DNA from: Woeseiaceae bacterium
Lineage (GTDB): Bacteria > Pseudomonadota > Gammaproteobacteria > Steroidobacterales > Woeseiaceae
NCBI GenBank assembly: GCA_021773095.1
Contig: JAJFKR010000015.1
Location: forward strand, 62,001-126,000
Direction: 5' to 3'
Length of the DNA: 64,000 bases
The notes under the pieces were generated by a model. That model made no database searches and was not told the origin of the DNA. It saw nothing but the letters and a program-made list of their open reading frames with translations. Numbering within the stretch: position 1 is the first letter of the stretch; each line of letters begins with the position of its first letter. Positions 1 to 62,606 of this stretch are shown one piece after another. A program made the position numbers and the translations under genes.

Positions 1-519
1 CTCACCGCCCCAGGCGCGCAGAAGTTCGCCTTTGGTTGAGAAGACAAGGACCTTGTGACTGTTATTGGCGCTTACAAATAACTCTTTGCCTTTGGGTCCG
101 ACCGCAACATCGACCGGTACCACATCGACACCGTCGTCCTCGAGAGGGATAGTGCGCCGGAACTTGCCTTTGGCGTCGAACATTACGAGACGATTATTGC
201 CCTTGTCGGCAATGTAAACCTCGCTTCTACCGCTGACACCAATGCCGAGCGGACTGTCGAGTTGCCCGTCATCGGAACCCGGCGTACCCAGGGATGCAAC
301 GCGCGAACCCGCCGCGTCGAAGACCGCGATCTGGTGGTTACCACCGTCAACCACGTATATTCGATTGTTCTTGCCAATGCCAACGTCGGACGGCAGAGAC
401 AGCGATTCGAGGGTAACTCGCTGATTGGGAGCTGCGGCAGGCAGTTCCTCGGCCAACGCGCTGCTCGCCAAAGCAAGGCTTACCGTCGCGAGGACCCGGA
501 TATTCTTTCTATTTGTCAT
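1..519 (-). CDS. NHL-repeat beta-propeller protein, exported (incomplete at window edge)
   Basis: The reading frame stays open from an ATG at 519 to the first base of the window, giving 173 residues without a stop. The start follows a basic n-region and hydrophobic stretch ending in ASSALA, a clear signal peptide, so the product is exported. NHL-type blades follow: DVGIGKNNRIYVVDGGNHQI, then LGIGVSGRSEVYIADKGNNR, then a third near the edge. NHL propellers bind proteins or act as scaffolds and have no catalytic signature here. The start lies inside the 3' end of the octahaem cytochrome gene (11-bp overlap), so it is the last visible member of that operon. The exact binding partner is unknown. 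Confidence 0.85.
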   Translation of the reverse strand, partial: MTNRKNIRVLATVSLALASSALAEELPAAAPNQRVTLESLSLPSDVGIGKNNRIYVVDGGNHQIAVFDAAGSRVASLGTPGSDDGQLDSPLGIGVSGRSEVYIADKGNNRLVMFDAKGKFRRTIPLEDDGVDVVPVDVAVGPKGKELFVSANNSHKVLVFSTKGELLRAWGGE

Positions 520-1390
520 GGCAGGCCTGGCAAATGTTGTTCACGCGGAGTCGGCTTCCAATCCCTGGCTCCTGCGATCCGTGTTCACCACCCACCTTGA
601 AATCGTGTGGGTTGTGGCAGGTGGCACAGAAGATCTCACCATTTAGCGGATTGAGCGGCAATCCGACACCGGTCTCTACTTGCGTTGTTCGCATATTTTC
701 GAGCACTTCCGGAGAAGGGGCAACGAGATGAACCCACCCCTCCACCCGATCGGAAAAATACAAACTCTTCGGGTGTGGCTTGACGGCGTGGCAGCCTCGG
801 CACGTGTCATTGAGGTCGTTCTGCATATTGAACTCAACAACCAGCCGGCCCGTCTTGCTGGTCTTTGGAAAATTCGAATGACACATGAGGCAGGTCGGCC
901 GCGGCTGGCTTCCTGCGATCCCAATGTGCGGATTCAGCTTCTCGTATCCATCCGTCTCATGGCATTCAAAACAAAAATCGCCCGTGTTCCTTGACGTTCG
1001 GTCTCGCAAAAAACCCGGATTGTGAAAACTGTATTGTCGTGTCGGTCGCTTGCACTGATAGGTAATGTCGTGACAAGTCATACAGGCCATTTTTCCTTCT
1101 TTCAACGACCCTTTGAATTTGTCTCCAATATCCCTCGCTTGGACGGCGATGTCGGATGCATGTCGGCACGGACGTGCGCCGCCACGATCGCCATGACAGG
1201 TATCACACAGAGCTTCCGCGTCACCTTCGTGCAAATTGATATTACCGGCAACAGGCGTGCTATTGACATGGCAGGTTTGACAAGTGTTCCTGTTCCAGTG
1301 CGGGTCATCCTGCGCGCTCGCCAAAGCCGAGATCAACAACGTTCCCAGCAACAATGCAAGCGACACGAGTTTAGTAATTTTTGTCGTCAT
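509..1390 (-). CDS. Octahaem c-type cytochrome, periplasmic
   Basis: A 293-residue exported protein with eight CxxCH haem c motifs, at residues 37, 62, 103, 140, 167, 197, 255 and 287. The start at 1390 (MTTKITKL) is preferred over an upstream in-frame ATG at 1441 because it follows AAGGA and opens directly into a signal peptide ending ASA. It overlaps the end of the upstream cytochrome gene by 20 bp, which suggests translational coupling. Two further single cysteines (CRHA and CKRP contexts) are not haem motifs. In Geobacter porin-cytochrome conduits the periplasmic partner also carries eight haems; the same role here is inferred from neighbours, not from sequence identity. Confidence 0.9.
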   Translation of the reverse strand: MTTKITKLVSLALLLGTLLISALASAQDDPHWNRNTCQTCHVNSTPVAGNINLHEGDAEALCDTCHGDRGGARPCRHASDIAVQARDIGDKFKGSLKEGKMACMTCHDITYQCKRPTRQYSFHNPGFLRDRTSRNTGDFCFECHETDGYEKLNPHIGIAGSQPRPTCLMCHSNFPKTSKTGRLVVEFNMQNDLNDTCRGCHAVKPHPKSLYFSDRVEGWVHLVAPSPEVLENMRTTQVETGVGLPLNPLNGEIFCATCHNPHDFKVGGEHGSQEPGIGSRLRVNNICQACHDK

Positions 1391-3056
1391 GATCCTTTCC
1401 ATGGCAGTCCAGATCGCACGACCCGGAGCGGTTGCCTTCATCGATGAATCTCAGATCACCATTGCTGTTCGGGAACACTATGGACGTGTCGAAATTGATC
1501 AGGTGCGAGTTGTTAATGCTGTTGCCCTGAGTGCTACTGACACCATGCGGGTCATGACAAGCATTGCACGGTGTGTCCTCACCACGAATGTGCTTGTCGT
1601 GCTCTTTGAAACTGTCGTCGCCCAGAATACTGTTACGGCTGTGGCAGCTATAACAAAGCGCGTAGTTCGAGGCACTCTCCGTCGTGTTATCCACGGTCAC
1701 ATAATTACGAGCCAGTATGGGTTCGAACGAGGAGCCGTGCGGACCTTCCGCGCCGAAGCCACCCACGGTGGGTGCCGAATTCGAGTTGTGGCAATCGGTG
1801 CAACCAACGAGTGAGGATTCCGTTAAAGGAGTGATCAGACTGGGAACATCTGAATTTCGTCCCGTGCTCGCGATCGGGTGAAACGACGGGTTGCTCGGTT
1901 GAATTTTGAGCCGCATATTGGATTGATCGTGTTGCCGTGGCGTGCGCGCCAGAGGCTGGTTTGGACTGTCGCCGTGGCATCGCAGGCAGATTTCATAGGT
2001 GTGTACGGCCGCGTTGATTTCCGCGCCCGAGATATTCACGCCACGTACATTAGCCGGCGTATCGCCGGGTGCTCGTCCCGCACGCGTTGCATGCGGATCG
2101 TGGCAATCAGCGCACTCGACGTGGCGCAGATCGACGACGGCGGGCTCAACGGCATCGTGCACCAGCGTGGTGTCGCTGACGCGGTGTGACGAGAATTTGT
2201 CGATCTCAGCCATGATGTCGTCTGCCGCTACGTTACCGTTGTGGCAATCCGCGCAGTTGTCCTCCTCGGCCGCGTGCAGGAGCAGGCGCGGCCCGCCGGC
2301 CACTGCATGCGGAATATGACAGCTCTCGCACGCGTTATCGGCGACGGTCGTGTACGGGCTGTTGCTCCACGGGTTCGGATTCTGCCCATTCCAGGTTGCG
2401 ACCGACTGGCCGTGCGACGTCTGTGACCAACCCGTTTTCAGATGGCATTCAACACAAATTTGCGCACCCATATTCGACATACGCAACAACTTGTCGAACG
2501 GGCTGTCGTGAGGATCGTGGCAGGTCGTACACTGCAATTCACCATTGGGATCCAGCGGCAATGCCTGACTGAATGTTCCCGGCATCGCAAGCTCGCCATT
2601 CTGAGACGCCAGTATCGATGAATATTCGAACGAGACCGGGTGATCGTCGGACAGATCCGTTCCCTGGTTGCTTTTCCCCGGGGGCATCGTACTGTTGCCA
2701 CCCGCCATCGAATGCGCTGGTGCCTGGTTGAGGATTTCGCCAAGCGCTATCGTACCGTCATGACAGCTCAAACAAAGCACCGACGTACCGGTCGGTTGCC
2801 CTGGCTGGGCCACAGAGGTGGTGCTCGAGTACGGGATGTAGGTCGAGGAAGAGCTTCTGCGACTCCACAAGCTGCCCGTCGAGCTCGCCGAGTGCGAAAT
2901 ATGGCAGAACTCGCATACCCTGTCCGCTGACGTCGCTTTCACACTGCCCGGACCCGAGGTTGACAGGTTATGCAGGCTGTCCTTTACGCCAGCATTGGCC
3001 GCTATTACGAGCCCCAACAGACAAGCTGTCGTGAATAATCTTATCAACGGTTTCAT
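1371..3056 (-). CDS. Multihaem c-type cytochrome with 11 CxxCH and one CxxxCH motif
   Basis: A 561-residue protein with a signal peptide (ends near residue 22, ANA) and haem motifs CxxCH at residues 48, 95, 176, 201, 243, 268, 315, 357, 419, 468 and 497. A final CDLDCH at 547 is a CxxxCH spacing, a rarer but known haem c site, giving 12 possible haems. The first four motifs with their surroundings (HNLS..GPG, CLSCHDGT, DLSDDHP, CTTCHDPHD) repeat the layout of the tetrahaem protein at 7334-7963. The start ATG overlaps the stop of the upstream NHL lipoprotein (ATGA). No lipobox is seen, so anchoring would depend on partners. It is a candidate cell-surface or barrel-embedded electron carrier. 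Confidence 0.9.
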   Translation of the reverse strand: MKPLIRLFTTACLLGLVIAANAGVKDSLHNLSTSGPGSVKATSADRVCEFCHISHSASSTGSLWSRRSSSSTYIPYSSTTSVAQPGQPTGTSVLCLSCHDGTIALGEILNQAPAHSMAGGNSTMPPGKSNQGTDLSDDHPVSFEYSSILASQNGELAMPGTFSQALPLDPNGELQCTTCHDPHDSPFDKLLRMSNMGAQICVECHLKTGWSQTSHGQSVATWNGQNPNPWSNSPYTTVADNACESCHIPHAVAGGPRLLLHAAEEDNCADCHNGNVAADDIMAEIDKFSSHRVSDTTLVHDAVEPAVVDLRHVECADCHDPHATRAGRAPGDTPANVRGVNISGAEINAAVHTYEICLRCHGDSPNQPLARTPRQHDQSNMRLKIQPSNPSFHPIASTGRNSDVPSLITPLTESSLVGCTDCHNSNSAPTVGGFGAEGPHGSSFEPILARNYVTVDNTTESASNYALCYSCHSRNSILGDDSFKEHDKHIRGEDTPCNACHDPHGVSSTQGNSINNSHLINFDTSIVFPNSNGDLRFIDEGNRSGSCDLDCHGKDHDDKNY

Positions 3057-4096
3057 TCGCCTGCCCCTACGTAGCGAAAGACCTGAACACGCTTATTGTA
3101 CGAATCGGCGACAAAGATCGTGTCATCCCTGCTTATGAAAATACCGTTTGGCAGCCAGAATTGCCCTTCATCCTGACCCTGTGCGCCAATGGAAAGCAAC
3201 AGCTCTCCTTTCGGGCTGAAGATCTGCAGGGAGTGCATCAAAGCGTCAACGACGTAAATGTGACCGTAACTGTCAGTGGCCACACCCTTCGGTCTCGAAA
3301 AATCTCCGGGCTCATCTCCATTCTTGCCGAAGGCGTAGAGGAAATCACCGCCCATATCAAAACGCTGCATGCGAAAATTAAGCGAGTCAGTGACCAGCAA
3401 CTCTTTACTCCTGGAATCTACCCACAAATACGTCGGAAAATTGAACTGGCCGGGATCGCTGCCGCGCTCGCCAAAGTTCCTCTGCAGATTTCCATCCCGG
3501 TCGAACACAAGAATTGACTGATTACCAGTATCCGTCACGTACAGTCGCTGTGAAACTGTATTCCAGGCGATACCCGTCGGCTGTTGTAACTTTTCTCCCG
3601 CGTAAAATATTTCTAGCTGCTTGCCACCAGGAACCAGTTGAAAGATTTTTCCTTGCTGAGAATCGGACACAAACAAGTGGCCATCATCGCTGATATCCAA
3701 CCCGACCGGAAAGACGGGAAATTCTTTCTTGCCAAGCCTCAGGCACTCGTACTGCGCCCCGGAAAGATCGTATCGATGAACACACTGGGCATCGGGGTCC
3801 GCGACATAGATAATGTCCTTATCAGCCGTCACCGCGACCGCCATTGGCCTGATCATTACATCGTCGGCCGAGCCAATGGCAAAACCGAGCAGCCTGCTCC
3901 ACGCACTTTTTCTGATGCCCAGATCCGGTGACTTGCGAAATTCGGTAATGAAAGCTATGCGCTTTTCACTCGGAGGATCAGGCCAAACCCTGTGCTCGCC
4001 GACGAACGGGGTAGGCGCGGTACCCGAAGCACAACCGGCAATGATAATCAGGGCAGCATGAAGTAAGACCCGTTTTTGAGATCGCCAGCAGATCAT
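3053..4096 (-). CDS. NHL-repeat beta-propeller lipoprotein
   Basis: A 347-residue protein. The N-terminus has basic residues, a hydrophobic run and the lipobox IAGC (Cys22), so it is predicted to be lipidated and probably outer-membrane anchored. The rest is a propeller of about six blades with repeating patterns such as IIYVADPDAQCVHRYD, HLFVSDSQQGKIFQ, RLYVTDTGNQSILVFD, LLVTDSLNFRMQRFD, HIYVVDALMHSLQIF and TIFVADSYNKRVQVF. It lies between the barrel gene (TGATG, one-base overlap) and the 12-haem cytochrome gene (ATGA overlap), so all three are translated from one mRNA. The likely role is a lipid-anchored scaffold that docks cytochromes on the barrel; this is inference. Confidence 0.88.
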   Translation of the reverse strand: MICWRSQKRVLLHAALIIIAGCASGTAPTPFVGEHRVWPDPPSEKRIAFITEFRKSPDLGIRKSAWSRLLGFAIGSADDVMIRPMAVAVTADKDIIYVADPDAQCVHRYDLSGAQYECLRLGKKEFPVFPVGLDISDDGHLFVSDSQQGKIFQLVPGGKQLEIFYAGEKLQQPTGIAWNTVSQRLYVTDTGNQSILVFDRDGNLQRNFGERGSDPGQFNFPTYLWVDSRSKELLVTDSLNFRMQRFDMGGDFLYAFGKNGDEPGDFSRPKGVATDSYGHIYVVDALMHSLQIFSPKGELLLSIGAQGQDEGQFWLPNGIFISRDDTIFVADSYNKRVQVFRYVGAGE

Positions 4097-6123
4097 CAGA
4101 ACACCCTCGTCAGCTGCGCCGTTACCTGAGTATTATTGTTCGCAGAATTTCCAAGCGTGTCTTCAGCGACCAATGCGCTCAGCACGAATCGGACTTGCCG
4201 GTAGGCCCATTGGAACTTGAACCTGTGTCGCAGTTGTTCGCGCTGCAGCGAGCCGCCATCATCACTGAGATAGGCCACGTCATACGTAAATTGAGCGCGG
4301 CGAAACAAGCGCCCACTCAAACCAAGCCGATAACTGAGCTGGTTCGTATCCTCTAACGAATTTTCGAAATCGACGATGGACAGACTGCTTGCAATCGTCA
4401 GTTTCCACGTGCCACGTAAGTTCGTCATCACGCTGACGTCGAAGGTATCGCTGACGAACGGTGAAATTTCCTCATCCTGATCCCGGTGGCGATACTGGCC
4501 ACTCAGGCTCCAGCCATCAAGAAACTGATTACTGGCACCGATACCAAGCTCCAGGCTGTCTCGATCATTGATCGGATTGGTAAACTCCCCTGCGCGCAGA
4601 TTCGTATCTTGTGTGTTGTATCGAAAATAGGCGTTCATCGAGTTGAGAAATCCGAGATTGATTGAAAATCCCGTTCCCACTGAGTCAAACTCCGCCGTAC
4701 CCGAGGTCTCGTAACTATAATCGACGACAACCGTTTCTCCATCGATGATGTTGCCGCCGAGCAATCTCTGAATTGAAGTAACGCTGCCGATCACCAGGAC
4801 CCTGTAGTCAATGCCTTCCGCAAATACCTGCGTCCGAGCGGCGTTACTGACAATGACCGAGCCGCCGACAACGAATTCATTCGCCAGATCCACAGGAGTT
4901 GTGCCACTTTGTACCTGCGACTCATCGAATACCTGAATATCGCTTACGCTCGACACCTGATTCGTACGCGAACCCCGCAACGCACCGGACAGGCCCAGCG
5001 TGCCGAAACCAACATCGCGCGTATAGTTGATTGAGCCCCTGGCATTCGACAGATCACGATTAAATCCCGACTGTCCTGTCGATAGATAGCCAACGGCCGT
5101 TTCGAAACTCAGATGATCACTGGTCTGGTGAACAAGGCCGAGTTCGACATCCTGCGTTTCCGACTCCGACGATGAATGCCGCGTATCGTATTGCCGGTAG
5201 CGCAGATACGATCGTGACCGGTCCTTGATTTTCCACCGTATATCGGCGCGATACTGTCGATCATCCAGGGTTGTGGTCGACGCCGCTTCTCTCTCCTGCA
5301 GCAATCGCCTCGCCACCTGGTTGATCTCGAAGCGGTCGTCTTCGCCCAACCGGTTCCTGGAATGAACCTCGAAAATCTCCTGGGATAAATCGGAACTGAA
5401 GATCGGCAAACCCGGACTTCCGCTGGCCGATTCGGTATCGAGCCGGTCGTATTTCAGTTCCAGACGATCAGAGTTTCTGTAGCTGGTCGATATTTCGACC
5501 GATCCTGACCTTGAGTCATCGTCGACGATCCGCCCCGCAGAAGCCCCCGTTGTCACTCGACTGCCGGCCTCAAATCGTATACTGGTCGAACCCCCCAACA
5601 AACCAAACAGGCGGCCATCAATGCCGTACGCATCACTTTCAGTCAGGAAGCGTCCTGCGAGACTGGTTGTGACGGAGGGATGACTTCGCTCGTAATACAG
5701 CGAAAATGGATAAGTCTTTAATTCCAGAAAATTGAATCGTGTCAGAAAATTGAACAGCGTGTCGTTATCGCTGTTTTCGCCCAGTGTGGCATCAAATTGC
5801 TGTTGTACGAATACGGCTCCCGCACCCATATCCATATTCAGGAACCCCGGGTGGTAGACGAATGTCCGCGTTAGCAGATAAAACTCCTCCTCCCAGGTAG
5901 AGCGAGTTTCGAAGCTGCCCAGTTGCACGGCTCCGCGTTCGCGATCGTCGAAAAGGTAGCTGGTTCGGAATCGACCGCTGACATCGAGCAGGCCAAAGAC
6001 TTTGATGTCATCCACTTCCTGATAGTCGGCGAAGGACATGAGTGGTGAAACGGCAATCATCAGGACCAGCGCTGCCGACAAGTAGTGCTTTGGTGCACGC
6101 TGCCTGTCGACCCTGGTTGCCAT
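4096..6123 (-). CDS. Outer-membrane beta-barrel, candidate porin of a porin-cytochrome conduit
   Basis: A 675-residue protein with a signal peptide (ends near SFA, residue 32) followed by alternating amphipathic strands throughout, such as GSVEISTSYRNSDRLELKY and LSFETAVGYLSTGQ. It ends in phenylalanine (LTRVF), the classic signal for outer-membrane barrel assembly. GGGAG lies nine bases before the ATG. Its size fits a barrel of 20 or more strands, like MtrB or OmbB, but the N-terminal CxxC of MtrB is absent. A residue 400-480 segment with fewer strand-like patterns could be a periplasmic or surface domain. It is flanked by two NHL genes and followed by 12- and 8-haem cytochromes, so a conduit role is the best reading. 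A generic porin remains possible. Confidence 0.8.
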   Translation of the reverse strand: MATRVDRQRAPKHYLSAALVLMIAVSPLMSFADYQEVDDIKVFGLLDVSGRFRTSYLFDDRERGAVQLGSFETRSTWEEEFYLLTRTFVYHPGFLNMDMGAGAVFVQQQFDATLGENSDNDTLFNFLTRFNFLELKTYPFSLYYERSHPSVTTSLAGRFLTESDAYGIDGRLFGLLGGSTSIRFEAGSRVTTGASAGRIVDDDSRSGSVEISTSYRNSDRLELKYDRLDTESASGSPGLPIFSSDLSQEIFEVHSRNRLGEDDRFEINQVARRLLQEREAASTTTLDDRQYRADIRWKIKDRSRSYLRYRQYDTRHSSSESETQDVELGLVHQTSDHLSFETAVGYLSTGQSGFNRDLSNARGSINYTRDVGFGTLGLSGALRGSRTNQVSSVSDIQVFDESQVQSGTTPVDLANEFVVGGSVIVSNAARTQVFAEGIDYRVLVIGSVTSIQRLLGGNIIDGETVVVDYSYETSGTAEFDSVGTGFSINLGFLNSMNAYFRYNTQDTNLRAGEFTNPINDRDSLELGIGASNQFLDGWSLSGQYRHRDQDEEISPFVSDTFDVSVMTNLRGTWKLTIASSLSIVDFENSLEDTNQLSYRLGLSGRLFRRAQFTYDVAYLSDDGGSLQREQLRHRFKFQWAYRQVRFVLSALVAEDTLGNSANNNTQVTAQLTRVF

Positions 6124-6151
6124 GTGTAATTACTCCCGGCGCCCGCCCGCA

Positions 6152-7243
6152 CTACTCTCGCAGTGACCCAAATCCGAAAACCGTCACTTTATTGGGACCA
6201 AACTGGCTTGCAACAATGACCAGATATTCAATCTCAAAATTTGACGCTGCGTATTTGCGAAAGTGCTCCACGTTACCGTAATCAATTTTTATTGCCGTCG
6301 GCATATTGATGCTGTCACGCTCATTGCCCGGTGCACCAAAATACATCAGCGCACCACCGTCCGAATGGAGTATTTGTACGTTTTCGAACGCGGCATCAAC
6401 GACGTAGATGTGATTCTCGCGATCAAGCGCTATTCCCTTGGGCCTGGAAAATGTCCCCGGCCCCGAGCCCGCAGCTCCGAATGTGCGGATGAATTCACCC
6501 GCGCCAGAGAACTCCTGGATTCGAAAGTTCGTGGTATCTGTCACGTACACAGTACCCTCGGGCGATAGTGCCAGGTTGGTCGGGTGATATAACTGGCCGG
6601 GTTCAAATCCCGCTTCCCCGAAACTGGATAAGGTCTCACCTGTCAGCTTGTCAAGAATGTGAATCTTGTGATGCATTACATCCGATATGAACAGCCGGTC
6701 ACCCATAATCAGGACATCAACCGGTTTAAATTGCCCTTGCTCGCCAAAGGCCCTCAAGAATCGATCGCTGGCATCGTAAACCAGTATCTGATCCCTCTCG
6801 GTATCCGTAACAAATCGCGTTCCATCGCTGTCAACAGAAATATTGATGGGCTTTTTCAGCGATCCACCGCCACTCGGCCGAACCACTCGGGAGCGGCCAT
6901 GCGCCACATCAAACACGCCCCAACCATTGCCACGCGCATCAACTACGAAAATAGCGCCATCGTGCATCGCAACCCCATACGGTTTGCTGACCAGCGCGCC
7001 TTCGTTCTCCTTCCCGCCAAATACAAAGTCTCGAAAGCCCTTGTTCCTGGATGAAACATCAAGCACTGACGAAAAGCTCGCCAGAAATTGTAATTTGGGT
7101 TCATTGGGCGGCTGTGGGTAGAACAAAGCCTCATCGTTGCCACTGGTTTCTTCAGCCTGCAACGGAACACCGACCAGGCTGGCCAGTCCAATTGCCAGCA
7201 AAGCATACGGGGTCAGCCCCTTGTTAACCTTTTTGGTCTTCAT
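6152..7243 (-). CDS. NHL-repeat beta-propeller protein, exported
   Basis: A 363-residue protein starting at MKTKKVNKG with a signal peptide ending near PLQA. A longer frame begins at 7294, but that ATG lies inside the terminator hairpin of the upstream tetrahaem gene, so 7243 is chosen. The N-terminal part carries a PQPPNEPKLQFLASF segment also seen, as PPSEKRIAFITEF, in the neighbouring NHL lipoprotein. Blades follow: IFVVDARGNGWGVFD, RFVTDTERDQILVYD, LFISDVMHHKIHI, VYVTDTTNFRIQEF and HIYVVDAAFENVQIL. No lipobox is present, so it is likely a soluble periplasmic or surface propeller. It is the first gene of the barrel/12-haem/8-haem operon, and expression may depend on read-through of the terminator just upstream. 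Confidence 0.85.
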   Translation of the reverse strand: MKTKKVNKGLTPYALLAIGLASLVGVPLQAEETSGNDEALFYPQPPNEPKLQFLASFSSVLDVSSRNKGFRDFVFGGKENEGALVSKPYGVAMHDGAIFVVDARGNGWGVFDVAHGRSRVVRPSGGGSLKKPINISVDSDGTRFVTDTERDQILVYDASDRFLRAFGEQGQFKPVDVLIMGDRLFISDVMHHKIHILDKLTGETLSSFGEAGFEPGQLYHPTNLALSPEGTVYVTDTTNFRIQEFSGAGEFIRTFGAAGSGPGTFSRPKGIALDRENHIYVVDAAFENVQILHSDGGALMYFGAPGNERDSINMPTAIKIDYGNVEHFRKYAASNFEIEYLVIVASQFGPNKVTVFGFGSLRE

Positions 7244-7280
7244 TTTTGCCGCCACCGATGAAAGTCGAATATTCCAAACG

Positions 7281-7315
7281 AAAAACGCTGCCACCGGCCG
7301 CTGTCCGGTGGCAGC
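7281..7315 (-). terminator. Intrinsic terminator after the tetrahaem cytochrome gene
   Basis: On the minus strand a perfect 11-bp stem, GCTGCCACCGG pairing with CCGGTGGCAGC around a 7-base loop (arms 7287-7297 and 7305-7315), is followed one base later by a five-T tract (7285-7281). It starts 18 bases after the stop codon of the cytochrome gene. No equally good promoter is visible between it and the next gene, so partial read-through may set the ratio of the tetrahaem protein to the downstream conduit. Confidence 0.85.
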
Positions 7316-7333
7316 GCCAACGTATCAACTGTA

Positions 7334-7963
7334 TTACTTATTATGACATGTCGAGCAAAGTGCGCTACCGGCATTGTCCAGTCTCAGCAACTTGCTATTT
7401 CCAGCCGTGTCGTGAACGTCATGGCAAGATCCACATTCGAGCGAATTCGAAAACAACAGATCCGCTGTAATCGTTCCACCCAGACCTGAATTGGTTGACG
7501 TCGGATTATTCAATCCGCCATCAGTCGTTGCCAGTGCGGCATCGTAAGTCAGCGAAATCGGATGGTCGTTCGACAGGTCGATTCCAACCAGGTCGGCACC
7601 GCCTACAAAGCTCGTTCCAGTCGTCGTGCCGCCAAAATTGTCCACCGCTACCGTGCCGTCATGGCAGGACAGGCAGAGTTTCGATACACCTGATGGCTGG
7701 CCCACCGTGGCGTCCAGGGTTCCGGGACCTGAATAGACCGTAAACGTAGCCGTGGTGACTTCATGGTTCCAGAGCGGTGCATCGGCGACTGTCGCGTCGG
7801 CGTTATGGGGCGTATGGCAGACGATGCAAAGCTCGCCGCTTGTGTTCCATACATCACCCGAAAAATCGTGCGCGCTACCGGATATTCCCTGTGCCAACGC
7901 GCCACTACTCAAAAACAGCCCGGTAACAACAACGGTCAACAGGCCTACTACTTTCTTAAACAT
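7334..7963 (-). CDS. Small tetrahaem c-type cytochrome, candidate extracellular filament subunit
   Basis: A 209-residue protein with a signal peptide (ends ALA, residue 24), AAGGAG nine bases before the ATG, and four CxxCH motifs at residues 46, 97, 177 and 203. Five further histidines (32, 53, 67, 134, 184) lie outside the motifs, enough for bis-histidine ligation of four haems. Its pattern (SAHDFSG, CHTPHNA, PLWNH, CLSCHDGT, DLSNDHP, CHDVH, CHNK at the end) is that of small tetrahaem cytochromes such as OmcE, some of which polymerise into nanowires; this family link is from memory. A strong terminator directly behind it would allow higher expression than the genes downstream. Whether it polymerises cannot be told from sequence. 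Confidence 0.85.
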   Translation of the reverse strand: MFKKVVGLLTVVVTGLFLSSGALAQGISGSAHDFSGDVWNTSGELCIVCHTPHNADATVADAPLWNHEVTTATFTVYSGPGTLDATVGQPSGVSKLCLSCHDGTVAVDNFGGTTTGTSFVGGADLVGIDLSNDHPISLTYDAALATTDGGLNNPTSTNSGLGGTITADLLFSNSLECGSCHDVHDTAGNSKLLRLDNAGSALCSTCHNK

Positions 7964-8247: not shown

Positions 8248-9036
8248 GTGACATCAATTAACTTAATACGGACGGTTGCGGGTTTGATCGCAGCTCTGTT
8301 GCTGACACAGCCAGGGTGTGCTGAATCCCGGCAGGAACCGACCACCGATAACGCCACCGCCTCGCCGGTGGTGGATGGCGGGGTCCGTGGCACGGTCCTG
8401 GAGACCATGAACTCCGGGGGATACAGCTATGTCCTGGTCGAAACTGAGCAGGACAGGCGCTGGCTGGCTGTGCCGCAGACGGTCGTACAGGTCGGTGATA
8501 CGATTCAGGCCTCGCAGGGCATGCCCATGCCTGACTTCGAGAGCAAAAGCCTCAATCGCAGCTTCGATATCGTCTATTTTCTAGGCGGGCTGGAAAACCT
8601 GTCCGCTCCGGCAGTGCCGGAAAATCGGTCGACCGGCGCCCTGCCATCCGGACATCCGAGTATCGACGGCAGCTCAGAAATACCGCCCGCTGACATCGAC
8701 GTGGCCGAACTCAAATCGGGGCAGAACATTGCCTACGTTCACGCGAACAAAAGTACGCTGGCCGGCCAGCAGATCAGTCTGCGGGGTGAGGTGGTCAAGT
8801 ACAACGCAAACATCCTGGGCTGGAATTTCATTCATATCCAGGACGGTTCCGGAGATGTGGCGGATGGCAGCAACGACCTGACGGTGACCAGTAAAGCAGC
8901 GACGGTCGTCGGTGAGACCCTTGTTGTCACCGGTACCATTATCCTGAACAAGGACTTCGGCTACGGCTACACGTTTCCCGTGATGATGGAAGGCGCGAGT
9001 CTCACAGCCAGCGACGAACCCGATGATGCTATTTGA
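8248..9036 (+). CDS. Exported OB-fold domain protein of the cytochrome cluster
   Basis: A 262-residue protein starting at GTG with AAGGA nine bases upstream. The N-terminus is a signal peptide; the Cys24 context QPGC is a poor lipobox, so lipidation is uncertain. Residues 47-113 (GTVLETMNSGGYSYVLVE, then WLAVPQTVVQVGD and MPMPDFESKSLNRSFDIVYFL) form a small domain often seen next to multihaem cytochrome genes. Residues 150-250 (GQQISLRGEVVKYN, FIHIQDGSGD, VVGETLVVTGTI) look like an OB-fold of the exported type that resembles NrfJ-like proteins. It is transcribed against all its neighbours. The function is unknown; a chaperone or binding role in haem protein assembly is only a guess. Confidence 0.75.
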   Translation: MTSINLIRTVAGLIAALLLTQPGCAESRQEPTTDNATASPVVDGGVRGTVLETMNSGGYSYVLVETEQDRRWLAVPQTVVQVGDTIQASQGMPMPDFESKSLNRSFDIVYFLGGLENLSAPAVPENRSTGALPSGHPSIDGSSEIPPADIDVAELKSGQNIAYVHANKSTLAGQQISLRGEVVKYNANILGWNFIHIQDGSGDVADGSNDLTVTSKAATVVGETLVVTGTIILNKDFGYGYTFPVMMEGASLTASDEPDDAI

Positions 9037-9054: not shown

Positions 9055-10278
9055 TCAGGGCAGTACCACAACCGTGTTGCCGGTCTGCAAATTATTGCTC
9101 ACATCGATCTCGCCCAACACTGGCTGTGCTTCGGCGGAAACGGTATGGGAGCCATCCGTCGTTGTGGTCCAGTCGAAAGTCGCCTGAGCGGTGCCGCCTG
9201 TCGGCGCAACACCTGAAACGTCCGCGAAGCCCAGGAACCTGTCGATGCTGGAGAAGAATCTGACGCGCACTACTTCGGCAGCGTCTCCGAGATTGGTAAA
9301 ATTGGCAGTAATCGTCACCGTCGCACCCAAACCGACCGAGGCCGGGGCCGCGGACACGCTATCCATGCGAATATCGCGATTGGGCAGGGTCCAAACCTCG
9401 TCACAGGTACCGTTGTTGTCAAAACAGTCGGCGTGGACATGGCAATCCGTGCATTGCCGGTCCTGATTGTGCAACGAACAATCCCGGTCCGGGCTCCAGT
9501 CGAAGCCGCAGCTATTCTTGTCAGTCTGTGAGTGGCACATTTGGCACAGCGCATCGTGTGGAGCACCCCCGGTATCACCCCAGTCGGGAATGGTCTCGCC
9601 CCACGCCGACGCATCGGATGGCTGCATCAAATCTTCGTCGAAGTCGGCCCAGCCGTGGACGATCGCGGACTTGCCCGGTGGGTCCAGGTTTTCGAAAATG
9701 ACATGGCGCTTGCCCGCAACATAACAATCATTGATAAGCGCTGGATCACAGGTTTGCGTCACGGCGGACTTGCGGTCGGGTACGCCGTCTTTGTCGTAGT
9801 CTGCCTCCCGGGTGATGATGATCGCATACGGTGTGGTCCCGTCCGGATCCTCGCGACCGACCATCTTGGTATTGACGCCCACCGGCCAGCCGGCCAATGG
9901 TACGTCGGTTCCATCGCGGCCGAGCGAATCGTCATGAGTGGCGTGATTGGGATCGTTCAGCCGCCAGTTCGGCATATTGTCGTGGACTTCGTGGCAGTCG
10001 GTGCAGGTTATATAATGCCTGGGGTAAGAGCCTCCATCGTCACTGCGGTGAGGCTGTACTGCATCAGTATTGCCATTGGCGGTGAGATGGCAGCCCAGGC
10101 ACAACACCTCCATGCTGACCTGGTCGCTGCGCGGCACAAAACCCGTGTCAGAGCCGTGCAAACTGTGACAAAAACCGCAATCATGGGTCGGCAATAACGC
10201 ATTGGCGATCGCGGAAAAGAGCAGGAACGCAGCCGCTGCTATAACAGCTGAACTCAATTTCATGATAAACCCGTTCAT
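9055..10278 (-). CDS. Pentahaem c-type cytochrome with C-terminal CARDB-like domain
   Basis: A 407-residue protein with a signal peptide (ends near ANA) and CxxCH motifs at residues 34, 60, 92, 245 and 276. Several further cysteines around residues 257-292 may form disulphides. A DYDKDGVPD segment at 160-168 resembles a calcium-binding thrombospondin type 3 loop. Residues from about 303 to the end (SVGLGATVTITANFTNLGDA and a GSHTVSAEAQP strand) read as a CARDB/immunoglobulin-like domain, commonly used for adhesion or surface display. The start ATG overlaps the stop of the upstream NHL gene (ATGA). Fusion of haem and adhesion domains suggests a surface protein, which is an inference. Confidence 0.85.
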   Translation of the reverse strand: MNGFIMKLSSAVIAAAAFLLFSAIANALLPTHDCGFCHSLHGSDTGFVPRSDQVSMEVLCLGCHLTANGNTDAVQPHRSDDGGSYPRHYITCTDCHEVHDNMPNWRLNDPNHATHDDSLGRDGTDVPLAGWPVGVNTKMVGREDPDGTTPYAIIITREADYDKDGVPDRKSAVTQTCDPALINDCYVAGKRHVIFENLDPPGKSAIVHGWADFDEDLMQPSDASAWGETIPDWGDTGGAPHDALCQMCHSQTDKNSCGFDWSPDRDCSLHNQDRQCTDCHVHADCFDNNGTCDEVWTLPNRDIRMDSVSAAPASVGLGATVTITANFTNLGDAAEVVRVRFFSSIDRFLGFADVSGVAPTGGTAQATFDWTTTTDGSHTVSAEAQPVLGEIDVSNNLQTGNTVVVLP

Positions 10279-11366
10279 TGTGCAGGGCCCGCAATTGCAA
10301 ACACCTCGATACGACCGAGCATCGTATTAGCGACGAGAATGCGAGAAGCCGCGGCATCACTCAGGACTCCCGTCGGCAACAACAGTTGCCCGGGGCCGGC
10401 GCCTTTGCCACCGAAAACACGCAGTTCACTAAAGTTGTTGGGCGTCGCTTCCTCGAACACCATTAGCTCGTGGCGGAAGCTGTCTGCAAGATACAGACGG
10501 CCATCGGAGTCCAGCGCCACGCCCTGAGCTCGGGAAAATTTCTGGCCGGCGTTGCCGCTATTGCCATCAATCGTGCCCAGCGGCAAGCCGTTGTAGTTAT
10601 AGATTCTGACGGCTGATCCCGACGTACAGCCCAGGGAGCCACATTTTTCGATACCGTCATCGCTGACGAAGACGCGCGCGCCCATCAGATCGAGCGCTAT
10701 AGCCTGAGGCTGGCCGAGCGGCGCCGAGCTGTTCGCATCACCAATGGTCCTGATCAGCGTGCCCGTCTCGTCAACCACATAAACGACACTGTCGGCCTTA
10801 CTCGCGATGAACAACCAGCCCCGTGACTCGTCGGCAACAATTGCCGATGGTTGCGGAATCGGAAACGCAGTCAGGCTGTCTGAAATCCTGATCCACCGAG
10901 GCTGCCATTTGGGCTTTATATTCTTCGAATGTTTTGTCTTTCGATTCTTTTTGCCATCAGTTTTTTCGAACACCTGGATAAGGCCGGTGCGTTCTTCACC
11001 AACGTACAGGCGACCATTCATCCAGCCAATGCTCAGGGGCTTGCCGCTACGAAAGACCGGATCGCCGTTCCCGTCCAGAACCGGTGCCCCGTCTAAATCG
11101 AGCAAAACTTCGTTACTAAAAACAGGAAACGCATCAGTCACCGTCATCGTAGTCGGATCGACGATAACAACTTTCGCACCCACGTAGTCGCCAACGATCA
11201 GGCCCAGAGGACTGACATCCATTCGCAACGGGCCGGCCATCCCCGGGGGTTGAGCGAAGGCCGGCGTGAATAACCAGAGAGCTGCGAGTACACATAGCAG
11301 TGAACTCATCCGACTTCGTGACTCCGTTTTCATGCGGCAGTGCATCATGTCGTACGTCCCCGTCAT
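10275..11366 (-). CDS. NHL-repeat beta-propeller protein, exported
   Basis: Up to 363 residues. Several in-frame starts exist: 11366, 11348 (preceded by GGGG at nine bases) and 11309. The hydrophobic core of the signal peptide begins only around residue 22 of the longest form and ends at PAFA, so the start is not settled. Propeller blades include RLYVGEERTGLIQVF, WLFIASKADSVVYVVD, RVFVSDDGIEKCG, RLYLADSFRHELMVF and RILVANTMLGRIEVF. A basic insert of about 20 residues (KKNRKTKHSKNIKPKW) interrupts one blade. It is the first gene of a two-gene unit with the pentahaem/CARDB cytochrome and has a plausible promoter upstream. Confidence 0.82.
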   Translation of the reverse strand: MTGTYDMMHCRMKTESRSRMSSLLCVLAALWLFTPAFAQPPGMAGPLRMDVSPLGLIVGDYVGAKVVIVDPTTMTVTDAFPVFSNEVLLDLDGAPVLDGNGDPVFRSGKPLSIGWMNGRLYVGEERTGLIQVFEKTDGKKNRKTKHSKNIKPKWQPRWIRISDSLTAFPIPQPSAIVADESRGWLFIASKADSVVYVVDETGTLIRTIGDANSSAPLGQPQAIALDLMGARVFVSDDGIEKCGSLGCTSGSAVRIYNYNGLPLGTIDGNSGNAGQKFSRAQGVALDSDGRLYLADSFRHELMVFEEATPNNFSELRVFGGKGAGPGQLLLPTGVLSDAAASRILVANTMLGRIEVFAIAGPAQ

Positions 11367-11512: not shown

Positions 11513-12136
11513 CTACTCGACGTTGGAGTCGGCCATTTCCGTTCGGCTGGCCAGCACGGTATCAATGAGCCCGTATTTAACCGCTTCGTCGGCACCCATG
11601 AAATTATCGCGCTCCAGGTCTTTTTCGATCTGTTTGACGTCCTGGCCCGTGTGTTTTGCCATAATCTCGTTCAGGCGGCGTTTCAGCGCGATGACCTCTT
11701 CAGCATGAATACTGATATCCGTCACCTGCCCCTGATAGCCCGCACTGGGCTGATGCACCATGACGCGCGAATGCGGCAGAGCGTAGCGTTTGCCTTTAGT
11801 GCCGCCCGCCAACAGCAACGCGCCCATGCTGGCGGCCTGGCCAATGCAAATCGTCGATACATCACAATTAATGAACTGCATCGTGTCGTAAATCGCCAGC
11901 CCCGAAGAAACCACGCCACCGGGTGAATTGATATACAGGTGGATGTCCTTGTTGGGATTCTCGGACTCAAGATACAGCAACTGCGCGACGATCAGATTCG
12001 CCATCTGATCCTCAACAGGCCCGACGATGAATATCAGCCGGTCCTTCAGGAGCCGGGAATAAATATCGTAAGCACGTTCGCCGCGAGCCGTCTGCTCGAC
12101 GACCATCGGCACGAGATTCAATGCTGTTGCACTCAT
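11513..12136 (-). CDS. clpP: ATP-dependent Clp protease proteolytic subunit
   Basis: A 207-residue ClpP of standard length. The catalytic serine is in the [11 protein letters not shown] motif, the catalytic histidine in SRVMVHQP, and the acidic residue follows in the C-terminal part ([19 protein letters not shown]). ClpP forms a 14-subunit chamber that degrades proteins unfolded by ClpX or ClpA. It follows tig on the same strand, the classical order. The usual next genes clpX and lon are not there: the cytochrome/NHL cluster begins instead about 150 bases downstream. The gene ends GAG TAG without a REP element. Confidence 0.98.
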
Positions 12137-61689: not shown

Positions 61690-62606
61690 TGGAAGTGACG
61701 GTAACCGCTGTTATCGACTACCACAATATCACCGTCCCGCTTGCATCTGAGACCGCGCGCTTTCGTCACTGATCCGATGCAGGTAATCTCCGCAATATCT
61801 GTTACGGATTCGATGGGCGCAGTGAAACACAACTCGTAGTCATCACCGCCGCAAAGCGCCAGATGGTGCCGCTCCTCCGCAACGAAATACTCGCGCAATG
61901 ACTCGGACAACGGCAACTTATCGATATCAATCTCGCCACCAACATCACTCGCATTCAGCAGTTTCGCAAGGTCCCCTGCGAGGCCATCCGAAATGTCGAT
62001 TGCGGCATTGGCCGTACCAACCAACGCCCTTCCCGTATTAATGCGGGGTGTGGGTCTGAGGAATCGCTGTGCAAGAAAATCGTCGGACGCTCCGACTTGT
62101 AACAGCTTGAGACCCGCGGCGGCGTCTCCCAATGTGCCGGTAACGAATATCGCATCACCGGGTTTCGCACCACTTCGTAACAGTGCAGCGCCCGGTTCGA
62201 TATCGCCGGTCAGGGTCACTGTCACCGTAACGACCGGACCGCTCGTTGTGTCACCACCGATTAGCGCGACGTCGTATTGTCCGGCGGCCTCGAAAAGGCC
62301 ACTCGCAAATGAATCAATCCAGTTCTCGCTGGAATCGACCAGCGTCAGAGCTAATGTCATCCACCGCGGCTCTGCGCCCATCGCCGCGATGTCTGAAAGA
62401 TTCACTGCGACCGCCCGGTAGCCGATATCAGCCGGATTTGTGTCGGCGGGGAAATGCACACTTTCTACAAGCGTGTCGATGACCTGAACCTGTTGCTTTG
62501 CGTCGTCAGGCGCCAGAACGGCGCCATCGTCTCCGACTCCGACCACAACACCTGGCATCTCGCCTTTGCGATCGAAGAAGCGGCGAATCAGTTCGAACTC
62601 GTCCAT
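61686..62606 (-). CDS. thiL: Thiamine-monophosphate kinase
   Basis: A 306-residue ATP-dependent kinase that makes thiamine diphosphate. Features are GVGDDGAVLAPDD (23-35), DTLVESVHFPADT, YRAVAVNLSDIAAMGA, GGDTTSGP and the C-terminal CGGDDYELCFT. It lies between nusB and pgpA, the usual context. Confidence 0.97.
   Translation of the reverse strand: MDEFELIRRFFDRKGEMPGVVVGVGDDGAVLAPDDAKQQVQVIDTLVESVHFPADTNPADIGYRAVAVNLSDIAAMGAEPRWMTLALTLVDSSENWIDSFASGLFEAAGQYDVALIGGDTTSGPVVTVTVTLTGDIEPGAALLRSGAKPGDAIFVTGTLGDAAAGLKLLQVGASDDFLAQRFLRPTPRINTGRALVGTANAAIDISDGLAGDLAKLLNASDVGGEIDIDKLPLSESLREYFVAEERHHLALCGGDDYELCFTAPIESVTDIAEITCIGSVTKARGLRCKRDGDIVVVDNSGYRHFQ

Follow-up and report, generated by a model that had tools for sequence, protein, structure and literature searches.

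The Uet (undecaheme electron transfer) cluster, known from Candidatus Tenderia and from some Gallionella, comprises a tetraheme cytochrome (UetA), an isomerase, a barrel (UetC), trihemes, NHL proteins, and a large cytochrome (PMC10734462). In the OmcE filament of Geobacter sulfurreducens (7TFS), one heme takes a ligand from the neighboring subunit (PMC9473688 and PMC12954529). A 2025 review names the membrane anchoring of cytochrome nanowires, and the points at which electrons enter and leave them, as open questions (PMC12307469). Here we describe an operon from a Woeseiaceae bacterium (GenBank assembly GCA_021773095.1, contig JAJFKR010000015.1) that encodes a large barrel, NHL beta-propellers, and multiheme cytochromes, two of which have homology to OmcE. 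The stretch analyzed, hereafter the window, covers 64,000 nucleotides (positions 62,001 to 126,000 of the contig). We regard it as somewhat probable that the locus encodes a module for extracellular electron transfer, in which an outer-membrane conduit and an OmcE-like filament are joined through the dodecaheme cytochrome c12.

The genes run along the minus strand in the order c4, NHL1, barrel, NHL2, c12, c8, NHL3, and c8′, the last lying outside the window. The c4 gene (7334..7963) encodes a secreted tetraheme cytochrome with four CXXCH motifs, a candidate OmcE-like filament subunit; directly 3′ of it, at 7278..7316 on the same strand, is a terminator-like hairpin with a 12-bp perfect stem, a 7-nucleotide loop, and a TTTTT run. 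NHL1 (6152..7243; PF01436, 1.5e-16) is a beta-propeller whose likelier start is the ATG at 7243, although a longer GTG frame reaches 7294. The next gene (4096..6123) encodes a predicted outer-membrane beta-barrel of about 26 to 28 strands, followed by NHL2 (3053..4096; PF01436, 2.3e-29), a propeller and probable lipoprotein with a lipobox-like IAGC; motifs of the lipobox type are present in 33 of 67 relatives. The dodecaheme c12 (1371..3056) combines an OmcE-like four-heme domain (residues ~22 to 207) with an eight-heme domain (residues 208 to 561), and c8 (509..1441) is a secreted octaheme cytochrome with eight CXXCH motifs, more likely to start near ~1387 than at the first ATG at 1441. NHL3 (1..519; PF01436, 3.9e-24) is cut by the window end; its complete form has 314 residues (L004 9575-10519), and the second octaheme gene, c8′, lies 3′ of it (L004 8592-9578). 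NHL3 and c8 overlap by 11 nucleotides, c12 and NHL2 by 4, NHL2 and the barrel by 1, and c8 and c12 by 71 from the first ATG or about 17 from the likelier start, while the barrel/NHL1 junction, with a gap of 28 nucleotides, is the sole nonoverlapping one of the five. An earlier note on this DNA had described six genes, NHL1 through NHL3, as one minus-strand operon with four of five junctions overlapping, a 12-site and an octaheme cytochrome, three NHL proteins, and a barrel without the CxxC of MtrB. All six were found again on that strand, with 11 CXXCH and one CX3CH making up the 12 sites and with no cysteine in the barrel. The extent of the operon was underestimated, since c4 and c8′ had been overlooked, as had its position between clpP and clpX.

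One line of evidence for a filament is homology to OmcE. Residues 20 to 209 of c4 align over the full length with residues 19 to 232 of OmcE 7tfs (phmmer; E = 7.6e-25), and residues 11 to 209 match 9YUQ equally well (E = 7e-25). The N-terminal third of c12 (residues 5 to 207) matches OmcE 7tfs at E = 5.5e-30, with an alignment that stops at a shared CHxK, and constitutes a second OmcE-like domain of the operon, separate from c4. An AlphaFold2 model of c12 (predicted local distance difference test [pLDDT] score, 88.2) returned a single PDB match at E < 0.001 with Foldseek, again OmcE 7tfs (E = 1.7e-9; TMt, 0.72; root mean square deviation, 3.7; 201 columns), so the modeled N-terminal domain appears to share the OmcE fold. 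In an alignment of OmcE with 49 c4 proteins and 78 c12 N-terminal domains, from which four paralogous rows were left out, the four CXXCH motifs of OmcE are kept in every row. The histidines at OmcE positions 31, 58, 149, and 208 are kept in 48, 47, 49, and 49 of the 49 c4 proteins and in 77, 75, 78, and 78 of the 78 c12 domains, respectively. In trees, c4 and the c12 N-terminal domains group apart from OmcE, and a c4 filament is a prediction.

The heme complement of c12 is also conserved. Relatives were taken as the best 80 of at least 562 confirmed in a profile scan of genome contigs, with many loci cut by contig ends, and 78 of these 80 have 11 CXXCH and one CX3CH (L055 has 10 plus one and L088 has 12 plus one). 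Among 70 aligned rows, which had been preselected by the 11-plus-one label, none departs from any of the 12 motifs. Because the pattern is kept across relatives, the 12 sites are not due to chance. Outside the motifs, 14 histidines are invariant in the same 70 rows and two more are nearly so (H55 in 68 and H300 in 66), for 12 hemes. The invariant His215, ten residues past heme 4, could substitute for the ligand that a neighboring subunit supplies in OmcE, which would free His29 for c4.

The hairpin after c4 provides an argument that is independent of OmcE homology. Its predicted folding energy in the window is −31.1 kcal/mol (z = −3.58). A stem-loop with a T-run occurs in 22 of 49 c4-NHL1 junctions, compared to a mean of 1.0 in dinucleotide-shuffled sequences and 10 of 243 other genes. 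Since the other genes of the module overlap, we also matched for gap length (30 to 260 nucleotides); on this basis the hairpin follows c4 in 19 of 38 cases, the window included, versus 5 of 95 unlabeled genes (P = 1.3e-8; Fisher's test) and 4 of 98 other labeled genes. Besides the window, it was found in Pseudomonadota, Bacteroidota, Verrucomicrobiota, Planctomycetota, Calditrichota, Myxococcota, Kiritimatiellota, and Nitrospirota (eight named phyla) and in unassigned records. Such a pattern would be expected for a polymer-subunit gene expressed above its machinery.

The operon is best read as encoding an outer-membrane electron conduit, because the model of the large barrel is confident, its cytochrome neighbors are dedicated, and the association is conserved across phyla. 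The AlphaFold2 model of the barrel (pLDDT, 89.6) shows 27 strands of at least 14 residues along with some that are shorter, and it has an insert around residues 395 to 475; no Pfam family and no PDB sequence matched it, and Foldseek returned generic large outer-membrane barrels, with the colicin receptor Cir as the best match (E = 9.2e-10). We surveyed 369 genomes of the class, our own included, for c12-type proteins (E = 1e-60) and the barrel (E = 1e-10), which gave matches in 19 and 15 genomes, respectively. Close homologs of the barrel might have been ordinary porins lacking cytochrome neighbors, as the earlier note had allowed; this was rejected, since a c12 gene is no more than 1.2 kb away from 11 of the 12 strong matches to the barrel (E of at most 4.4e-86), G342 being the exception. 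Two of the four weaker matches (G270 and G370) are beside a c12-type match, and two (G255 and G393) are not.

Among the 80 relatives, which span 14 named phyla and include 9 unassigned loci, the barrel, an NHL protein, and c12 occur together in 63 loci of 12 named phyla, so the barrel-NHL-multiheme arrangement for which a synteny search had been proposed does recur. In 43 loci of 11 named phyla, c4 is also present next to NHL1. One named strain, Desulforhopalus sp. IMCC35007 (L052), carries c4, NHL1, the barrel, NHL2, and c12. Counting 81 loci with the second cluster of our own genome, c4 is directly upstream of an NHL1-type gene in 48, and c12 is immediately preceded by an NHL gene in 67, with a gap of 10 nucleotides or less in 61 of those 67. 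The c12 tree requires 15 label changes for 14 phyla (minimum, 13; shuffled mean, 40.8), and the family looks old because this number is close to the minimum. Binning errors in metagenome-assembled genomes (MAGs) are possible, as a "Nitrospinota" row is nested among Pseudomonadota. Distances of module proteins over 38 loci correlate beyond all 2,000 permutations in 9 of 10 pairs.

In the scheme that we infer from these observations, the barrel would sit in the outer membrane and enclose the electron path of c8, of the eight-heme part of c12, or of both. The c4 protein would be exported and would polymerize into a cytochrome filament as OmcE does, and c12 would act as a single-ended adaptor, with its OmcE-like domain joined to the c4 filament and its eight-heme domain to the conduit. 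NHL1 (soluble), NHL2 (as a lipoprotein), and NHL3 might serve as assembly or docking scaffolds, c8 is a candidate periplasmic or in-barrel partner, and electrons would most likely flow outward, serving respiration. Several points weigh against this scheme. Homology to OmcE is not proof of polymerization, the heme-ligand histidines are assigned from conservation and not from a structure, and the N terminus of c12 could be a mere electron transfer domain. Half of the gap-matched c4 junctions have no hairpin, and NHL2 and c4 form the pair whose distances are uncorrelated (r = 0.07; 449 of 2,000 permutations as high). A small cytochrome of fewer than 300 residues, c5, is labeled in 35 of 81 loci and in 29, from other bacteria, is directly 3′ of NHL1, yet it is missing from the window operon, and c8 has no recognizable homology to it (25 bits), which leaves c8 as a c5 counterpart unsupported by sequence. 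The RuBisCO result considered below is also weak evidence, as the genome is 89% complete.

The nearest relative of the module is Uet. Six of the 19 c12-type matches proved to be partial matches inside larger proteins (796 to 889 residues) that have 11 CXXCH each and no CX3CH, and all six of these Uet-type undecahemes begin with an OmcE-like domain (E = 2.5e-23 to 1.1e-26). As proxies for Uet we used two clusters (L176 and L178) recognized by gene order, heme counts, and the isomerase, and possibly other than Tenderia's own. L176 encodes, in order, a tetraheme, a 329-residue protein, a 598-residue protein, two trihemes, a 485-residue protein, a triheme, two NHL proteins, and an undecaheme; the 329-residue protein is a PPIC-type isomerase, and both NHL assignments were confirmed. 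This content agrees with the Uet part list in PMC10734462, and L178 is similar, isomerase included. Three of the six undecaheme loci (L175, L176, and L178) open with an OmcE-like tetraheme in the stretch examined, and in the tree three Uet-type tetrahemes group with 46 of the 49 c4 proteins, including that of the window, in a single starred set. The alignment of the L176 undecaheme to the c12 family spans 526 columns (hhalign probability, 100%; E = 4.5e-72), and the NHL proteins of the window operon (NHL1, NHL2, and NHL3) correspond to UetHI.

There are also differences. The c12 protein is about 300 residues shorter than the L176 undecaheme and has a twelfth site, CX3CH, which the six undecahemes lack; the idea that the printed "undecaheme" overlooks such a site was therefore rejected. 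The six undecaheme N-terminal domains form one starred group apart from those of c12. The window operon has two octahemes and a third NHL protein, a search of the operon found no trihemes (UetDEG), and no isomerase (UetB) matched among its eight proteins, whereas L176 and L178 each have one. The barrels appear at best distantly related: a hidden Markov model of the window family misses the 598-residue L176 protein, and hhalign finds a weak match (probability, 35%; E = 4e-4; 78 columns). As judged from these comparisons, the window operon appears to be sister to Uet and distinct from it, having a barrel and partner cytochromes of its own, and the two would be conduit types that have different barrels and the same fused OmcE-domain design. 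The earlier suggestion of an undescribed outer-membrane conduit is partly supported: a conduit is the favored interpretation, but "undescribed" goes too far, since Uet, which is related, has already been published (PMC10734462). A pentaheme with an OmcE-like stretch (L178 13242-14219) was also observed downstream of the Uet-type undecaheme.

Kinship with Uet raises the possibility, which we consider rather unlikely, that the locus works in the opposite direction, bringing electrons from iron or electrodes inward, as has been proposed for Tenderia and Gallionella; c4 and c12 would then be monomers outside the cell and would form no filament. Both proteins belong to the families of the Uet-type tetraheme and undecaheme; Uet has been discussed for iron oxidation and cathodes (PMC10734462 and PMC13386937), and the trihemes of Tenderia are among its most expressed genes (PMC5371394). 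However, trihemes and the isomerase are absent from the operon, and both the hairpin and the homology to OmcE suggest a polymer. The genome (89% complete) gave no match to RuBisCO, three matches to COX1, and a NapC/NirT protein at C12:201811, and its contig C12 also carries a CEFC-bearing MtrB beside a 10-CXXCH cytochrome (L128 8811-11918). The NapC/NirT protein, the MtrB with its 10-heme neighbor, and the lack of a RuBisCO match favor electron export, with uptake as a less likely alternative. Large multiheme membrane proteins are encoded near this MtrB, so that candidate conduits of two or more kinds are present in this organism.

In another, improbable arrangement, the barrel and propellers would be a secretion or assembly machine for the c4 filament, with electrons crossing elsewhere, for example through the MtrB system of contig C12. 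An assembly machinery for OmcS was reportedly described by Shen in 2025. The presence of the MtrB system in the genome suits this arrangement, as do Foldseek matches of the barrel to usher and LptD barrels. A pure exporter would have no need of c12 and often a further cytochrome (c8 here and c5 elsewhere), yet these accompany the barrel across phyla.

The conduit-plus-filament reading also differs from other described systems. The OetABI plus OmcS/OmcX cluster of bacteria that partner anaerobic methanotrophic (ANME) archaea is alike in pairing a conduit barrel with filament-type cytochromes, but its filament proteins are OmcS/OmcX-like and its description, as far as consulted, includes no OmcE-domain dodecaheme (PMC10553843). 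MtrCAB and PioAB likewise encode a large barrel with multiheme cytochromes; the window operon lacks a decaheme, and its barrel is outside PF11854, the profile comparison with MtrB/PioB having been proposed in the earlier note. A PF11854 search of the whole genome matched only the barrel at C12:175981-177900, and hhalign gave a probability of 1.4% between the operon barrel family and the genome's own MtrB. The barrel is thus like conduit barrels in size and company, while its sequence does not support kinship with MtrB. Membership in either the Omb/Oma/Omc group of Geobacter or the MtrCAB group of Shewanella, the parallel first drawn for this locus, is very improbable: heme counts of 8 and 12 and a large barrel for which MtrB (6r2q_B) gave the highest TMq, 0.42, among the 50 listed of 795 Foldseek matches speak for it, but the profile results and the missing CxxC largely contradict the MtrB version, and for Geobacter the heme counts alone agree, the OmbB, OmaB, and OmcB sequences lying outside the comparison.

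The operon is inserted between genes that are usually neighbors. The clpP gene (11513-12136; PF00574) is separated by about 13.1 kb from clpX (L004 7119-8435). A clpX match was obtained in 34 of 40 genomes surveyed, our own among them, and 30 loci were examined; clpP is 60 to 309 bp from clpX in 26 of these, and the remaining four are our own genome, G014, G017, and a locus cut by a contig end. At its clpX locus, G014 carries the barrel as well as the end of c8′. Across 60 genomes, our own included, the barrel was found in our own, G013, and G014, with a weak match in G056. Because of this clpP-clpX spacing and this distribution of the barrel, we conclude that the gene set is a patchy insertion, one that composition does not reveal (G+C, 54% versus 55% for the window). 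In G017 (L131), a gene homologous to 8248-9036 and a short piece of the C-terminal end of c8′ are kept upstream of clpX, likely as a deletion scar; no barrel was found in this genome (76% complete). The best named c12 match is from a Woeseiaceae MAG (L014; 85%), whose clpP is 96% identical and adjoins the same cluster.

Beside the operon, on the plus strand, 8248..9036 encodes a secreted protein with no Pfam family above the cutoff; related open reading frames (ORFs) occur in 11 loci, own copies included, and a homolog adjoins the second cluster of the genome. That cluster, on contig C27 (L012 1889-11500), is a diverged module of c4, NHL1, barrel, NHL2, and c12 in which the NHL2-c12 pair is tandemly repeated, giving two dodecahemes. 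Between the operon and clpP, positions 9055-11366 encode a pentaheme cytochrome with a CARDB match and another NHL protein, a pair that L014 also carries. A total of 17 ORFs in 14 loci, including the window and its overlapping copies, are related to c8, for which no relative of solved structure was found at E < 0.1.

Further cytochrome arrangements were seen among the relatives. Longer relatives of c5 (L029, L069, L077, L034, and L028) have 9 to 24 heme sites, as if a unit had been repeated. A distinct 11-plus-one-heme family (L056 8317, L065 13584, L078 15980, and L084 5117; three records of Planctomycetota and one unassigned) branches far from c12, and a c13+2x cytochrome adjoins it in L065, L078, and L084. 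In Gammaproteobacteria loci L117, L118, L120, L018, L019, and L046, the module is followed by an octaheme, a c7 in which one motif is longer, a membrane protein (of the cytochrome b561 family, PF01292, in L118), a triheme, an NHL protein, and, where uncut, a large cytochrome, with altered versions in L119, L121, L122, and L074. This arrangement could connect the conduit to the quinone pool.

It is plausible, although we propose it tentatively, that c12 is a membrane anchor for a nanowire, a filament subunit fused to a conduit connector, and that this fused design is common to Uet. As far as the consulted literature shows, the OmcE domain in the dodecaheme and the Uet-type undecahemes, its possible anchor role, the c4 hairpin, and the wide distribution of the module are new; among the titles and abstract openings searched, none described UetJ as having an OmcE domain or dealt with an anchor subunit, which does not prove absence from print. 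Several of the phyla concerned are not known for electroactive members, and the spread of the module over many phyla would broaden the range in which such wires are expected. Considering that a conserved protein that is part filament-like subunit and part multiheme connector is encoded with a dedicated barrel and a filament candidate, the question of nanowire anchoring becomes testable. If the proposed reading is true, wire plus socket would be a common design among bacteria, of ancient origin and present in 11 phyla or more, in which the wire gene is expressed above the socket by means of a recurring terminator.

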